Below, piece after piece: positions 19,995-45,056 of a DNA stretch of 64,000 bases. This stretch comes from Cystobacter fuscus (lineage in GTDB: Bacteria; Myxococcota; Myxococcia; Myxococcales; Myxococcaceae). The DNA is taken from assembly GCF_002305875.1 (NCBI RefSeq), contig NZ_CP022098.1:10974001-11038000 (forward strand), given 5' to 3'. A program made the translations under genes and the position numbers. Numbering within the stretch: the first letter of the stretch is position 1; every line of letters begins with the position of its first letter. The notes under the pieces were generated by a model. That model had not been told where the DNA came from. It did not search any database and saw nothing but the letters and a program-made list of their open reading frames with translations.

Positions 19995-21350
19995 ATGTAC
20001 GTCAAAGAAGTACGGATCGAGAATGTGCGTGGGTTTCGATCCGGGGACCTCGCAGTCAACCTCGACCTAACACGCCCCGGCAAGGACAAAAAACTCGCTG
20101 GCTGGACTGTGATTGCTGGTCGTAATGGTGCAGGAAAATCTTCATTTTTGAAATCTATCGCACTGTCGATTGCTGGTCCTTCAGCGGCCAGAGCGCTTCA
20201 GGAAAGTTTCGCTGGCTGGATACACTCAGGAGCTCCAATTGGCTCAGTCGCCACACAAGTAGTGCCCGCTGAATTCGATCAGTTCGAAAAAACCGGTCGT
20301 CGTCCGTCTACCTTTTGGACTGGTCTTGAATGGGAAAAACACGCCGAAGGTCCGGAGCCAGCCCTTCGCTCCATAGATGAGCTCAACACAAAGGGCAGAC
20401 AGGCGCCTCGACGCGGGCCCTGGTCTGACAATCCTATCGGATGGTTTGTCGCTGGCTATGGACCATTCCGCCGTCTTACAGGCCATGCCTCTGACGCACA
20501 GCGGTTAATGGTGGGACCCAAGCGTATAGCGAGACTCGTCAGCCTGTTTCGGGAGGATGCATCCCTAGTTGAATGCATACAATGGTTAAAAGACATCTAC
20601 CTTCGCAAACTCGAAGACAAATCCAACAACGAATGGAAATGGCTCCTAGATGGCATACTGCACTTGCTCAACGATGGATTGCTGCCCGAGGGAGACAAAG
20701 TTGTAAAGATCGATTCTGAAGGCCTTTGGATCTCTCGCGGAGAAATTTCACTTCCACTTAGAGAACTTAGTGACGGCTATCGCACCATTGCCGCCCTAGT
20801 CGTAGACTTGGCACGTCAAATCTACGACTGCTACGGAGAATTCAACCTCATCACCCCTGACAATGACACAGGACCCTGGGTGGTTCCATATTCCGGCGTT
20901 GTATTGATTGATGAGATCGACGTCCATCTTCACATTTCGTGGCAACAAAAAATCGGATTTTGGCTCAAAGAGCACTTCCCAGCGATTCAGTTCCTTGTCA
21001 CAACGCATAGCCCATACATCTGCCAGGCAGCAGATCCTGCAGGACTCATCCGCCTACCGGCGCCCGGTGAAAACGAGCCCGCCAAGCACGTTGCAGAAGA
21101 TCTATTCACCACGATCGTCAACGGAAGCACCGACGACGCGGCAATGACCGAACTATTCGGGCTTGAGAGAACCTATTCCAGCAAATCCGAAGAGCTTCGC
21201 AAGCATGTTGCGCAACTGGAAGCCCGACTCATAAAGGGCAATGCTTCTCCTAAGGAGCGTCAAGAACTCAGGCAACTTGTAGAGCAACTTCCCAAGAGGG
21301 GTAGTTCCGTCGTCCAACAACTCTTGCTTGGCCTTACGTCAAAACCATGA
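19995..21350 (+). CDS. ptuA: Septu-type anti-phage ATPase (PtuA-like)
   Basis: A 451-residue ABC/SMC-like ATPase. Walker A GRNGAGKS is at 42-49, an ABC-type signature LSDGYR at 258-263, Walker B with Asp306-Glu307 in VLIDEID, and a switch His338 in TTHSPY. A perfect AGGAGG precedes ATG 19995. It overlaps the HNH gene by four bases (ATGA), so the two are translated together. An overlapping ATPase/HNH pair of these sizes is the layout of type I Septu, in which PtuA and PtuB form a complex that restricts phage. Retron-Ec78-type systems use the same effectors, but no reverse transcriptase is present. Markedly lower GC than the flanks shows recent transfer. Confidence 0.87.
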   Translation: MYVKEVRIENVRGFRSGDLAVNLDLTRPGKDKKLAGWTVIAGRNGAGKSSFLKSIALSIAGPSAARALQESFAGWIHSGAPIGSVATQVVPAEFDQFEKTGRRPSTFWTGLEWEKHAEGPEPALRSIDELNTKGRQAPRRGPWSDNPIGWFVAGYGPFRRLTGHASDAQRLMVGPKRIARLVSLFREDASLVECIQWLKDIYLRKLEDKSNNEWKWLLDGILHLLNDGLLPEGDKVVKIDSEGLWISRGEISLPLRELSDGYRTIAALVVDLARQIYDCYGEFNLITPDNDTGPWVVPYSGVVLIDEIDVHLHISWQQKIGFWLKEHFPAIQFLVTTHSPYICQAADPAGLIRLPAPGENEPAKHVAEDLFTTIVNGSTDDAAMTELFGLERTYSSKSEELRKHVAQLEARLIKGNASPKERQELRQLVEQLPKRGSSVVQQLLLGLTSKP

Positions 21351-22072
21351 GAAAATTGACTCGCGCCAATCTAAGTCCAGAGGCAAAATCACTCCTGGCA
21401 AAACGCACTGCTCGCGTGGCAGCAGCAAAGGACCCCAAAGCAGAAGCCAAGAAGTTATGGGCACAGCAACGAGTCAAAGCATTCAGAGAAATCCGGATGC
21501 TCCTGGCCAAAATGGCCTCTGGACGAGAACGCTGCATGTACTGCGAAGACAGCCGCGGCACAGACATTGATCACTTCTGGCCCAAGGCAGACTTTCCAGA
21601 TCGCGCATTCGAATGGACCAACTACCTCTGGGCTTGTAGCCATTGCAATAGCAACCAAAAGCGCGACCAATTCCCAAGAGACAGTTCCGGAAATCCAGAA
21701 CTAATCAATCCTACAGTCGAAGATCCTTCTCATCATTTGGTACTCTCCCCAAGTACTGGAAAATACCAGTATTTAACCACCAAAGGGCAGAAAAGCTGTA
21801 CTGTTTTCGGCTTGAACCGAGGATTTCTAGAGGAGGGCAGACAAGACGCTTGGGTAGCACTTCAGACTCTTTTACCCAAATACGCCGAACTTTCTGCTCA
21901 GTCACAAGACAAGAGAGCAGCTGAAATCCGCCGCGTGGTCACAAGGCATCCATTTTCAGCCGTTTTGGCTACACTGCTGCACTTAGCAAGTGGTCCAGGC
22001 TCTACCCTACTAAGCCCTGAGTGCTTAAAGGCTGTTTTGAGCCACCCCGAAATCCAAACATGGATCCAGTGA
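21347..22072 (+). CDS. ptuB: Septu-type HNH endonuclease (PtuB-like, TIGR02646-like)
   Basis: A 241-residue HNH nuclease. Zinc-knuckle cysteines CMYC (63-66) and CSHC (97-100) flank the catalytic DIDHFWPK (Asp75-His76), followed by the conserved Asn101-Ser-Asn103 region. This is the pattern of the TIGR02646/PtuB group that partners SMC-like ATPases in Septu and in retron-Ec78 defence. It starts inside the ATPase stop codon (ATGA). The nuclease would cut DNA or RNA when the complex senses phage. Its 3' end overlaps a further short open frame. GC content matches the ATPase and is unlike the chromosome around it. Confidence 0.87.
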   Translation: MRKLTRANLSPEAKSLLAKRTARVAAAKDPKAEAKKLWAQQRVKAFREIRMLLAKMASGRERCMYCEDSRGTDIDHFWPKADFPDRAFEWTNYLWACSHCNSNQKRDQFPRDSSGNPELINPTVEDPSHHLVLSPSTGKYQYLTTKGQKSCTVFGLNRGFLEEGRQDAWVALQTLLPKYAELSAQSQDKRAAEIRRVVTRHPFSAVLATLLHLASGPGSTLLSPECLKAVLSHPEIQTWIQ

Positions 22073-40839: not shown

Positions 40840-41946
40840 ATGAGCTCTTTCTTGTCTTCATCCTCCAGGTACGCCCGGGCCCTGCTCGTGACGGCGATGA
40901 CGGTTCTGGTGGTTCCCGCGTGCGGCGGGGACAATCCCTCTCCTCCCCTCTCCACGAGTGAGCGCCAGGAGCTGGAACGGCAACTGGCCGGGATGCAGTC
41001 CACCATCGACGAGCTGCGGGCCCAGCTCACCCGCTACGAGCAGGACGGGGCCGCGGCACAGCAGGAAAAGGAGCAGCTGACCGCGCAGCTGGCCGACGTC
41101 CAGCAACAGCTCGCCGAGGCCCGGGAGTTGCTGGCCACCCAGGACTGGGATGGGGTGCTCGTCAAGCTGGACGCGGCGAACGAGCAGGTGAGGCAACTCC
41201 AGGCGCGGCTGGCCGCCACCCACGGCGACCTCACACTGAACGCCGCGCTGTTCTTTGGCGGCCAGCCGCTCGCGCTGGATACGCCCTACGGCCCCCCCGA
41301 AGGGGAGCTCTCCTTCACCGAGCTGCGCTACTGGCTCTCCAATGTGAGGCTCCAGAAGCAGAACGGAACGCAGGTGGCACTGCCGGACAGCTACTACCTC
41401 ATCGAGGCCATCAAGGAGCAGCCGGTGCTCGGCATACCGGAAACGGGCTCGGGTCCCGTCATGATGCCGGCCAACCGCCGCGAGCGCGTCCAGGTGCCCG
41501 TGGTGCCCGCGGGCATCTACACCGGCATCACCTTCAGCGTCGGCGTGGACCCCACCTACAATGACAACCTGAGCCGCCAGGCCGGTGAGCTGCACGTCCT
41601 CAAGAACATGGCCAACGAAACCTGGATGTGGTTCACCAGCTACATCTTCACCAAGGTGAAGGGCCAGTACGTGAGGGCCGATGGGAGCAGCGCCGAGTTT
41701 GGCTGGGAGACGGGGACCAACGACGACTTCCGCACCGTGCGGCATGTCTTTCCCGCTCCTGTCACGGTGAACGCGCAGAAGGCCTTGATCGTGAACCTGC
41801 GCCTGGACACCGCCCGGCTCTTCACCGGGCTCCACCCCACCACCCAACCCCTCATCGGGGCCAGCAACGGCGTGGAGCGCGCCACCCTGTCCGACAACTT
41901 CGCGAACGGCTTCTCCCTGACGTCAGTGGAGAACCCCAACCGATGA
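40840..41946 (+). CDS. MbnP-family lipoprotein with coiled-coil insert (pair 1)
   Basis: A 368-residue lipoprotein; lipobox VVPAC puts the modified Cys at residue 28. Residues 41-125 are a Gln/Glu/Leu-rich coiled coil, absent from ordinary members. The rest is the MbnP beta-sandwich (ELRYWLSNVRLQKQNG, SYYLIEA, then GIYTGITFSVGVD). MbnP binds copper after its partner di-haem enzyme MbnH converts a Trp to kynurenine; several Trp residues here (YWLS, TWMWF) could serve. The four-Cys motif of the other copy is missing. It overlaps the partner gene by four bases (ATGA). Confidence 0.85.
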   Translation: MSSFLSSSSRYARALLVTAMTVLVVPACGGDNPSPPLSTSERQELERQLAGMQSTIDELRAQLTRYEQDGAAAQQEKEQLTAQLADVQQQLAEARELLATQDWDGVLVKLDAANEQVRQLQARLAATHGDLTLNAALFFGGQPLALDTPYGPPEGELSFTELRYWLSNVRLQKQNGTQVALPDSYYLIEAIKEQPVLGIPETGSGPVMMPANRRERVQVPVVPAGIYTGITFSVGVDPTYNDNLSRQAGELHVLKNMANETWMWFTSYIFTKVKGQYVRADGSSAEFGWETGTNDDFRTVRHVFPAPVTVNAQKALIVNLRLDTARLFTGLHPTTQPLIGASNGVERATLSDNFANGFSLTSVENPNR

Positions 41947-43028
41947 GCCCCCCCGGGCGCCGTGGCGGGAGCGCGGCATGGAAGCTGATGCTGGCCCTGC
42001 TCGGCGCCTGTGGGCCGGGCCCGGAGGCCGTGTCCCCCCCGGAGGGTGGCGAACCCGTCCTCCCCCTGGGCATCACCTTCGTGCCAGCGCCCCAGGACAA
42101 CCCGTCCAACCCCGAGGGCGTGGCCCTGGGGCGCTGGCTGTTCTACTCGCCCCTGCTGTCGGGCAACGGGCGCGTGTCTTGTGCCTCCTGCCACGTCCAA
42201 TCCCATGCCTTCTCGCTCGATGCCTCGCTCGCCACGGTCGGCGTGAGTGGACGCCCGCTCGTCCGTCATGCGCCCGCGCTCATCAACCTCGCCTGGATGG
42301 ACGGCCTCTTCTGGGATGGCGGCGCGAAGAACCTGGAGTCGCTGTCGCTCGGGCCCATCACCCACCCGGATGAGATGGGGCAGGGAAATCTCCAAGCGCT
42401 GATGGAGCGCCTGGCCTCCACGCCAGAGGCCGTCCAACGCTTCGAGGCCGCGTTCGGACCCGGTGGGCCCACCCTCGGCCAGTTGCTGCGAGCGCTCGCC
42501 CAGTTCCAACGCACGCTGGTGTCGGCGCGCTCTCGCTACGACCTGTGGCGGCGGGGCGAGCCCGGAGGCGAGCTGAGTGCCCTGGAGCAGGCGGGATACG
42601 GGCTCGTGCGGGCGCGGTGCACGCCGTGTCACGACACGGAGCTCTTCACGGACAATGCCTATCACAACAATGGCCTGGACTCCGTCTGGGGCGAAGGGGA
42701 GGACGAGACCCGGGGCCGGGGCCGCATCACGCTCGAGCCCGAGGACACGGGGCGCTACAAGACGCCCACGCTGCGCAACGTGACGCGCTCGGCGCCCTAC
42801 ATGCACGATGGCCGCTTCGCCACGCTGGACGCGGTGCTGGAGCACTACCGCCAGGGCGTGGTGCCCTCCCCCACCCTGGACATCGCCCTGCGCGGGGATG
42901 GCCAGCAGGCGCCGGGCCTGTCCCTGAGCGACGTGGAGAAGGCCGCCGTGCTGGCCTTCCTCGACACGTTGACGGACGAGGCCTTCCTGAGCGACCCGGC
43001 GCTGGGACCCCCCGGCACCGGACCGTGA
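41943..43028 (+). CDS. MbnH/MauG-like di-haem cytochrome c peroxidase-family enzyme (pair 1)
   Basis: A 361-residue lipoprotein (lipobox LLGAC, Cys23) with two c-type haem sites, CASCH (80-84) and CTPCH (226-230). The layout is that of the cytochrome c peroxidase/MauG superfamily, including the RYKTPTLRNV and APYMHDGRFATLDAVLEHY signatures near the end. In the studied MbnP/MbnH system the di-haem enzyme reaches a bis-Fe(IV) state and modifies a Trp on its MbnP partner; here the partner is the overlapping gene upstream. It ends four bases from the convergent second copy. Confidence 0.9.
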   Translation: MSPPGRRGGSAAWKLMLALLGACGPGPEAVSPPEGGEPVLPLGITFVPAPQDNPSNPEGVALGRWLFYSPLLSGNGRVSCASCHVQSHAFSLDASLATVGVSGRPLVRHAPALINLAWMDGLFWDGGAKNLESLSLGPITHPDEMGQGNLQALMERLASTPEAVQRFEAAFGPGGPTLGQLLRALAQFQRTLVSARSRYDLWRRGEPGGELSALEQAGYGLVRARCTPCHDTELFTDNAYHNNGLDSVWGEGEDETRGRGRITLEPEDTGRYKTPTLRNVTRSAPYMHDGRFATLDAVLEHYRQGVVPSPTLDIALRGDGQQAPGLSLSDVEKAAVLAFLDTLTDEAFLSDPALGPPGTGP

Positions 43029-43032
43029 CGGC

Positions 43033-44178
43033 TCAGGGATGAAGGGCCGGGTCCGCGAAGCGCGGATCCGTCAGGAACCCGGTGTCCGTCAGCGCCTCCA
43101 GGAAGGCAATCAAATCCGCCTTCTCCTCGGGCGTCAGGGTGAAGCCTCGCACGAAGCTGCTGCGCAGTGGGCTCGTGCTGCTGGAGTCGAGCAATCGGGC
43201 CCGGCCGCCCGCGGCGTAGTGGTCCAACACCTCGGAGAGCGTCGCGATGCTCCCATCGTGCATATAGGGCGCGGTGAGCGCCACGTTGCGCAGGGACGGC
43301 GAGCGGAAGCTCCCCATGTCCTCGGGACGTCCCGTCAGCTCGATGAGGCCCGGGTCCGTCGCGGGATAGGCGCCCATCCCGTCCTCGTTGTACAGGCCCG
43401 TGTTGTGGAAGGGCAGGACGGCCTCGCCAGCGCCTTCATGGGTCGCGCCGTCCTGGAAGTTGAAGCCCTGGTGGCAGTGGTTGCACTCCAGGCGCTCGGA
43501 GAAGAAGAGCTCCATGCCGCGCTTGGCCGCCGGGGACAGGGCCTTGGTGTTGCCCTCGAGGTATTGATCATACGGCGCATTGCCCGACAGCAACGTCCGC
43601 TCGAAGCTCGCCAGGGCGCGCGTGAGGGAGGCCAGGGACACGGGCTCGGCCTCCTCCGGGAAGGCCTCGGCGAAGCGCGCCGAGAGGTCCGCATCGGCGC
43701 GCAGGCGCGCGAGCAGCTCCTCCTCCTTGTCTCCGAAGCCCAGCTCCACGGGCTCCTTGCCGAGCAAGGGGGAGAGGACCTGGACCTCCAGGGAGGGGAT
43801 GCTCGGGTTGGCCCAGGTGAAACTCGTGGCATAGGCGATGTTGGCCAGGCCCTGGGCGTTGCGGCGGTGCAGCTCTCCGGTACTGCCCAGGCCGTGCGTG
43901 CGTCCATCCGTGAAGGCACGTGCCTGTTCATGGCAGGAGGCACAGGACTGGGTGCCATTGAGCGACAGGCGCTTGTCATAGAAGAGGCGCCGGCCCAGTT
44001 GCACCTTGGCCTCCGTCATCGGATTGTCCGCGGGAACCACGGGGGTCGGGAAACCCGCGGGCAACCGCCACTGATACTTCTCGGGCCCGGGCTCGGGGGG
44101 CGGGCGATCACCGCACCCACTCCCCAGGCAGGCCAACGCCGACAGGAATACCCACCGCTTCGTCATGAACGGCCTCAT
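43033..44178 (-). CDS. MbnH-type di-haem enzyme (MXAN_0977/TIGR04039-like, pair 2)
   Basis: A 381-residue lipoprotein (GSGC, Cys22) from ATG 44178, which has GGGGGAG upstream; ATG 44166 is an alternative. Haem sites are CASCH (79-83) and CNHCH (232-236). FYDKRLSLNGTQSCASCHEQ and SFRSPSLRNVALTAPYMHDGS are family hallmarks. It lies 11 bp after the MbnP gene and is expected to oxidise a Trp of that protein to kynurenine to build a copper site. It is more similar in layout to the characterised MbnH than the copy at 41943-43028. Confidence 0.92.
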   Translation of the reverse strand: MRPFMTKRWVFLSALACLGSGCGDRPPPEPGPEKYQWRLPAGFPTPVVPADNPMTEAKVQLGRRLFYDKRLSLNGTQSCASCHEQARAFTDGRTHGLGSTGELHRRNAQGLANIAYATSFTWANPSIPSLEVQVLSPLLGKEPVELGFGDKEEELLARLRADADLSARFAEAFPEEAEPVSLASLTRALASFERTLLSGNAPYDQYLEGNTKALSPAAKRGMELFFSERLECNHCHQGFNFQDGATHEGAGEAVLPFHNTGLYNEDGMGAYPATDPGLIELTGRPEDMGSFRSPSLRNVALTAPYMHDGSIATLSEVLDHYAAGGRARLLDSSSTSPLRSSFVRGFTLTPEEKADLIAFLEALTDTGFLTDPRFADPALHP

Positions 44179-44189
44179 GCTTCTCCCCC

Positions 44190-45056
44190 CTACTCCAGAC
44201 GGATGAAGGTCTGCACCGCGACGGCCTCGGACGGGTCATGGAACGGAAGCCCCAGCCGGTTGAATACCGGCGCGCAATCCGGATCCTCCTTCTGGGACAT
44301 GCACCCGATGGAGGTATTGGGCACGTTCGCGTCCACATCCAGGTTGGCGTCGGCGAGGAGGTTGGCCAGGTCCAGGACGACCCTGCTCTGGTCCAGCACG
44401 AAGCCCTCCAGGGAGATTTCCGGGCGGCTGGGGAGGGTACACCCGCCATACGGCTGACCCGGCTCCGCGGGGGGGCAGTCCATGCTCCCCAGGTGCATGA
44501 CGTAGCCCGAGCGCAGACCGGTCGTCCGCCCGTCGACGCGGAGGAACACATAGCCGTAGCGCCAGCCCCAGAACAGGGTGGTGTCGTTGAAGGGCGCGGG
44601 AGCGAGGGTGGGGTTGCGGTGGTTGAGCGCCTCGGGCAGGCCGAGCGTGAAGCGCAGCCCGCGGTAGTTCCCCTCGGGAACCGTGCCCACCAGGTGCGTG
44701 CGGGTCGCCGCCGTCCCGTTGGTGCACTGGCCCGACTTGTCCGCGAAGTCGAGCAGGAGCGCGCCGTCCTTCTGCCACACCCCATCGTCCGTGAGCGCGA
44801 CGGGAACCTCCGTGCCGTCCTCCGAGACGAGCCGGACCTCATGGAGGAACACGCGGAAGTCCATGGGCTCGAAGGTGGTCGCCGTGGTGCCCAGTCCCGT
44901 GTACGTGTTCCCGCAGGCGAAGGGCCGCGCGCCCACCCGGGCCTCGAAGGAGATGTCCACCGGGAGTTCCTTCTTCTCGGGTTCCTGGAGCCCACACCCC
45001 AGGGAGCTGGCGAGTGGCAGGGCAATGGCAATGAGGCGCGCGGGGAATGAATTCAT
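44190..45056 (-). CDS. MbnP-type copper protein, four-Cys motif (MXAN_0976/TIGR04052-like, pair 2)
   Basis: A 288-residue lipoprotein (SSLGC, Cys21). The beta-sandwich begins DISFEARVGARPFACG and includes FRVFLHEVRLVSEDG and NYRGLRFTLGLP. The four-Cys motif that defines the metallo-mystery-pair group is present (MDCPP, GGCTLP, IGCMSQKEDPDC). The conserved WGWRYGYVFLRVDG supplies Trp candidates for conversion to kynurenine. The gene is upstream of, and co-transcribed with, the di-haem partner. Known relatives are expressed under copper limitation; whether that applies here is inference. Confidence 0.92.
   Translation of the reverse strand: MNSFPARLIAIALPLASSLGCGLQEPEKKELPVDISFEARVGARPFACGNTYTGLGTTATTFEPMDFRVFLHEVRLVSEDGTEVPVALTDDGVWQKDGALLLDFADKSGQCTNGTAATRTHLVGTVPEGNYRGLRFTLGLPEALNHRNPTLAPAPFNDTTLFWGWRYGYVFLRVDGRTTGLRSGYVMHLGSMDCPPAEPGQPYGGCTLPSRPEISLEGFVLDQSRVVLDLANLLADANLDVDANVPNTSIGCMSQKEDPDCAPVFNRLGLPFHDPSEAVAVQTFIRLE

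Follow-up and report, generated by a model that had tools for sequence, protein, structure and literature searches.

Pair 1 of Cystobacter fuscus, a lipoprotein gene followed by that of a di-haem enzyme, would encode a working but divergent MbnP/MbnH pair, in which the usual tryptophan is oxidised within a rebuilt site of carboxylates, asparagine and methionine and the family histidine is absent. Judging from the sequences, we give this reading about even chances. MbnP/MbnH pairs are known for oxidising a tryptophan of the protein itself, which then takes part in a copper site. In a 2021 study of MbnP (Manesis), MbnH reportedly oxidises the first Trp of a WxW motif to kynurenine, and the copper(I) is said to lie near one His, one Met, water and the kynurenine. 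The pair described here and its relatives (type T1) retain the Trp, its enzyme and those haem residues that were checked, but the family His is gone; we would therefore expect Trp oxidation to be the same and the site to differ.

Both genes lie on the forward strand of the window, the 64,000-nucleotide stretch that was analysed, which falls within a single 12.35-Mb contig. The T1-type MbnP lipoprotein P0001 (40840..41946, +; 368 aa) is followed by its cognate partner, the MbnH-like di-haem lipoprotein MbnH1 (41943..43028, +; 361 aa), and the stop of the one overlaps the start of the other in an ATGA at 41943-41946. Pair 2, of methanobactin type, is convergent with pair 1 and consists of an MbnH (43033..44178, −) and an MbnP with six Cys and both His (44190..45056, −). 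These two MbnP genes are the only PF20243 (MbnP) genes in the whole genome. P0001 belongs to PF20243, scoring 112 bits against a cut-off of 27 over residues 129-336, and falls outside TIGR04052 (21.8 bits, cut-off 140); the pair-2 MbnP scores 125.9 bits with PF20243 and passes TIGR04052 with 255.8 bits. MbnH1 scores 164 bits with PF03150 and 212 bits with TIGR04039, which is below the cut-off of 362.85 and still its best NCBIfam match, and the pair-2 MbnH is over that cut-off with 486 bits. Since P0001 and MbnH1 score far below pair 2 with TIGR04052 and TIGR04039, both genes of pair 1 have diverged.

The best solved relative of MbnH1 is MbnH itself (6e1c, 6.4e-45). No PDB entry matched the P0001 sequence below E 0.1; the MbnP structure 7l6g was reached by sequence from the pair-2 MbnP (7.3e-28) and by fold from the P0001 model. 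After a signal peptide and the lipobox VPAC with Cys28 (40840..40923, +), the AlphaFold2 model (26-row alignment; pLDDT 84, pTM 0.78) contains three helices and the MbnP beta-sandwich, the latter at residues 129-368 (41224..41943, +). The loop carrying the WxW motif (255-267) has a pLDDT under 50. P0001 has the same fold as 7l6g by Foldseek (E 1.5e-8), though the TM-scores are only 0.28-0.37, and VIA superposes the two with Z 14.3 and an rmsd of 3.9 over 204 residues. Other metal proteins were not among the matches that VIA listed for the sandwich, which does not amount to their exclusion.

Sites were compared in an alignment of 234 MbnP-family domains: 40 of T1, 80 of the methanobactin type T2 (including 7l6g), 21 of T3 and a broad set of 93 others. 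T1 was defined by a phmmer score above 80 bits to P0001's own domain and not by residues. A profile search of 296 Bacteroidota genomes, from which not all places were taken, supplied most of the domains, and new sequences that scored below 40 bits, were shorter than 180 aa or were nearly identical to others were dropped. The WxW motif of P0001 is Trp262-Met263-Trp264 (WMW; 41623..41631, +), aligned with W-N-W of 7l6g, and Trp262 is the expected kynurenine site. Both Trp are present in 40/40 T1, and the first also in 80/80 T2, 20/21 T3 and 91/93 others. The original prediction had suggested that P0001 may use a different Trp; with a WMW at the homologous place this is not supported, and we rejected the idea that another Trp must be used. 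The Bacteroidota T1 were taken with the seeds WMWFTSY and F[TS][EQ][LV]RYWL[ST], so their WMW is partly there by construction. The 18 T1 copies from the window's order were found by a profile search independent of WMW, and Glu290 lies outside both seeds.

Glu290 (41707..41709, +) replaces the nearly constant family His. In this column (7l6g index 179) His occurs in 80/80 T2, 20/21 T3 and 92/93 others (192/194), and the 40 T1 rows hold Glu 27 times, Asp 12 times and His once. The two exceptions outside T1 are Val and Ile, thus no acid stands at this position outside T1 in the 234-row set. The only His-bearing T1 row (L120) is the first-branching T1 and has WTW. When hhalign was run on separately built profiles, Glu290 again fell on the family His, against T2 as well as against the broad set. 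The conservation of the index-179 residue suggests that it is the copper His of 7l6g. P0001 has Glu290 where this His of the metal site would be, which weakens the case for a copper site of the MbnP type but leaves membership in the fold family untouched.

Asp242 (41563..41565, +), next to Asn241, is Asp in 38/40 T1 and falls, in the alignment, on the NH-motif His of T2. That alignment is secure to T2 only, hhalign being unsure of it with the broad set, and the NH-motif His is not constant outside T2. Glu250 (41587..41589, +) is Glu in 40/40 T1, with Glu or Asp in 0/80 T2, 2/21 T3 and 10/93 others (12/194). Asn294 (41719..41721, +) is likewise found in 40/40 T1 and in 2/21 T3 and 9/93 others (11/194), and Trp165 in 40/40 T1 and 0/194 elsewhere. 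Being T1-wide and found in few or no domains elsewhere, Trp165, Glu250 and Asn294 argue for a new constraint rather than decay. Met263 is present in 38/40 T1 and in 2/194 domains elsewhere. Met257 (41608..41610, +), which hhalign places on the Met two residues before WxW in 7l6g, is present in 38 or 39 of the 40 depending on the alignment. These two are the only His, Met or Cys columns kept in nearly all T1 rows, and no His column reaches half of the 40. For the GCMS Met column (7l6g index 241) the alignment from one type to another is not secure. Among 17 myxobacterial copies, residues 235-300 are the most conserved of four regions, with a mean pairwise identity of 74% compared with 63% for the sandwich; this pattern speaks against decay.

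Six Cys columns are filled in 80/80 T2, in 0/40 T1 and, at each column, in 2/21 T3 and 1-2/93 others. P0001 has Cys at 0 of the 6, so that it lacks a TIGR04052-type Cys motif, as the original prediction had said; its sole Cys is Cys28 of the VPAC lipobox. What had been described as a four-Cys motif comprises six conserved Cys in the aligned domains of the pair-2 type (n = 80). We rejected the missing motif as an odd feature of P0001, because among the aligned types only the methanobactin type has the Cys. The suggestion that P0001 uses a different metal is possible through Glu/Asp at position 290 in place of the family His, a change that the original prediction had not noted. The absence of Cys is no ground for it: Cys is not among the reported MbnP ligands (His, Met and water, near the kynurenine), and outside T2 hardly any domain has Cys in those columns.

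The expectation that the di-haem partner keeps both haem sites was borne out: MbnH1 has two CxxCH motifs (42180..42194 and 42618..42632, both +). A partner gene lies downstream in 35/40 T1, and two CxxCH, both haem His, the inter-haem-type Trp and the Tyr are present in 35/35 of these partners, which places them with the MbnH/MauG-type enzymes. The Tyr of MbnH1 (42846..42848, +) is aligned with that of 6e1c; we take it to be the ligand corresponding to Tyr294 of MauG, in place of the Met ligand of the peroxidases. A pattern count for the residue resembling Glu113 of MauG gave Glu in 23, Asp in 11 and Gln in 1 of the 35 partners. In trees of 80 thinned rows having a partner (short search, SH-aLRT support only), the T1 MbnPs form one clade (SH-aLRT 96), as do the T1 partners (SH-aLRT 99) together with two further Echinicola MbnHs. 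For the latter two the gene immediately in front is a non-T1 MbnP, and partner and type thus do not match perfectly; their loci contain, in addition, a T1 MbnP that has no MbnH next to it downstream, and these enzymes may serve it. We note that in Sphingobacterium faecale (L117, 4282-6072) two tandem T1-type MbnPs precede one MbnH, the first with WAW instead of WMW.

T1 is found in Myxococcota and Bacteroidota and looks rare by sequence: 28 loci turned up when 84,980 species genomes were scanned with the seed patterns. Two of these (L095/L096, BNCN01000002.1) are filed under Comamonas sp. KCTC 72670, probably a mislabelled myxobacterium. Within the window's order, 145 genomes were searched, 72 have PF20243 and at least 17 have T1 (18 copies); the T1 figure is a lower bound because the PF20243 places of G055, G058, G060, G062, G063 and G067 were left out. 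A T2 or T3 MbnP lies in the flank taken for 33/42 T1 genes, a set from which five duplicates (L093-L097) were removed, in which L117 counts twice and which includes three copies of one species (L103, L104, L119). The neighbouring MbnP has the family His in 33/33. It is on the opposite strand in 13/18 copies of the window's order and on the same strand in Labilithrix and Bacteroidota. As the neighbouring His-type pair keeps the classical residues, both pairs probably work side by side in envelope metal handling.

Relatives of SCO1/SenC occur in 12/28 and relatives of YtkA in 11/28 of the seed-scan T1 loci. This context favours a role in envelope copper or metal handling, although it could also stem from the T3 pairs in these gene groups. 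Among the six neighbours scanned in the window itself there was no match to a copper family. In another member of its genus (G075; L048, 2462-5926) the T1 pair is in reversed order, with MbnH first; a SCO1/SenC gene follows the T1 MbnP, and the flank taken holds no T2 pair. A protein containing the stretch CDICGCGVGSYYIGILPDF (L106, 8482-9447), for which there was no Pfam match at E 0.01, has relatives in 22/28 of the seed-scan T1 loci. The 2-kb block at 20001-22000 of the window has a G+C content of 51%, compared with 63-77% in the other blocks.

Omega was calculated against two congeners. Relative to G074 it is 0.83 and 0.71 for the genes of pair 1 (14.5 and 13.5 synonymous changes) and 0.31 and 0.19 for those of pair 2; relative to G073 the order is reversed, with 0.47 and 0.29 for pair 1 and 0.69 and 0.47 for pair 2. 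The conflict perhaps reflects the small number of changes, or recombination; omega thus gives no clear answer, and the values against G074 may mean relaxed constraint on pair 1. In one further genome (G116; L039, 3493-4773 and 4624-5818) the T1 MbnP has no lipobox Cys and the MbnH is split over three frames, either a broken pair or sequencing errors.

On the reading that pair 1 is a working pair, MbnH1 would, after export, oxidise Trp262 of WMW, yielding kynurenine or a similar compound. This product would sit in a rebuilt pocket of Asp242, Glu250, Glu290, Asn294 and Met257/Met263, without the family His, and metal binding there would differ from that at the His/Met copper(I) site of MbnP. The T1 site may bind copper in a different manner, some other metal, or no metal. 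It is possible, though we find it doubtful, that T1 is still a Cu(I) protein with Met257 and Met263 beside Trp/Kyn262 as ligands and the acids in the second sphere. Both Met are nearly constant in T1 and Met263 is rare outside it, and the SCO1/SenC and YtkA relatives and the His-type pair next door are copper-type neighbours. Other types, however, also have a Met near the place of Met257, which is thus no replacement for the family His, and the remaining T1-typical residues are acids and an Asn, which are poor ligands for Cu(I).

We consider it improbable that T1 is a degenerate protein or structural scaffold which has lost its metal site and persists as an envelope partner only, or as a relic. 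A nearly constant His has indeed been lost, omega is raised against one of the two congeners, and one genome holds what may be a broken copy (L039). The same acid replacement nevertheless recurs across two phyla, WxW is invariant in T1, the partner is kept with its checked haem residues, and residues 235-300 are better conserved than the sandwich. MauG makes a tryptophylquinone, and T1 need not be a copper protein: the partner could form a tryptophylquinone-like or crosslinked Trp cofactor from WMW, with Glu290, Asp242 and Glu250 in the role of the acids found beside the modified Trp in tryptophylquinone proteins, in a lipid-anchored redox protein on the MbnP fold. What keeps this among the candidates, at a low probability, is that T1 combines a conserved pair of Trp with a MauG-like partner and with acids that are conserved as well. 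The passages on this point in PMC7876137 describe an Asp close to the cofactor as strictly conserved in tryptophylquinone enzymes; mutating it in GoxA does not abolish cofactor formation.

Between the lipobox and the sandwich, residues 39-125 of P0001 (40954..41214, +) form three heptad helices, predicted by modelling to pack as an antiparallel three-helix bundle, most simply a spacer. The AlphaFold2 model of the full protein places the helices at 39-68, 74-99 and 103-125, and the region folded alone (seven sequences) again gave three helices (pLDDT 86, pTM 0.71). The count at heptad positions a and d beats shuffling in every helix, the observed value being reached by 11, 406 and 141 of 20,000 shuffles. 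A hydrophobic-moment test of the helices was not significant: 1258, 2227 and 1535 of 5000 shuffles reach the single-sequence value, and more do so with averaged profiles. VIA matches each of the two models to a designed antiparallel three-helix coiled coil (Z 12.7 and 13.0, rmsd 1.6 over 89 residues), with the warning that helical bundles easily reach a Z of that size. A coiled coil of 85 residues ahead of the sandwich had been proposed. The helices are indeed there, over some 87 residues, but they make an N-terminal extension and not an insert. It is rather unlikely that they form an extended parallel coiled-coil stalk or an oligomerisation device instead of an intramolecular bundle. The heptads are clean and AlphaFold2 modelled a monomer only, both of which would suit such an arrangement, but the two predictions agree on three helices that match the designed bundle, with the warning on Z just given. 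For the same reason a long extended stalk was rejected as first choice.

Three antiparallel helices, being odd in number, put the lipid at one end and the sandwich at the other, and a spacer is then the simplest reading: the bundle of the Myxococcota members would hold the sandwich off the membrane. The original prediction had P0001 tethered to a partner through the coiled coil. P0001 is a lipoprotein with a predicted bundle, as that idea would have it, and tethering to a partner is without support; given the lipid anchor, which the bundle separates from the sandwich, what P0001 is evidently tethered to is a membrane. The helical region is present in the 18 T1 copies from the window's order and in the Labilithrix copy, and the lipobox Cys is kept in 17 of those 18, L039 being the exception. 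In Bacteroidota T1 with a called lipobox, a stretch of 11-24 residues takes the place of the helical region between lipobox and domain; no lipobox was called in L101 and L120. The Myxococcota T1 MbnPs group together (SH-aLRT 92), consistent with one gain of the region, and on a tree whose root was not inferred the region was likely gained rather than lost.

P0001 thus resembles the MbnP of Methylosinus trichosporium (7l6g) and TIGR04052 in its sandwich, its WxW and its MbnH partner, and differs from them in failing TIGR04052, in having none of the six Cys, in Glu290 for the family His and in the added lipid-anchored helical bundle. MbnH1 similarly shares with MbnH (6e1c, TIGR04039) and MauG the two CxxCH, the inter-haem-type Trp and the Tyr; it differs in scoring below the TIGR04039 and MauG cut-offs, and the T1 partners form a cluster of their own. 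The Cys-free MbnP pairs of Bacteroidota (T3 and the broad set) are like T1 in being almost without Cys at the T2 columns, and an MbnH-like gene adjoins the MbnP in 21/21 T3 and 90/93 of the broad set; unlike T1, they keep the family His. MopE/CorA with SACCP/CorB is, as far as the relevant passages of PMC3912023 describe it, also a gene pair of a surface protein and a di-haem peroxidase-like enzyme. There a Trp at the metal site becomes kynurenine, and the copper of CorA is surrounded by two His and the kynurenine. The likeness to T1, which has no His column in half of its rows as against the two copper His of CorA, lies in the layout of the gene pair and in the expected Trp chemistry. In the literature searched, covered mostly at the level of abstracts, no His-free MbnP clade was among the matches listed, a silence that says little.

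T1 keeps the Trp and its own enzyme and drops the family His, usually beside a His-type pair. It thereby separates Trp oxidation from the copper site, two things that have so far been studied together, and it bears on a possible role for kynurenine, or for some other product of Trp, outside the His/Met copper(I) site.
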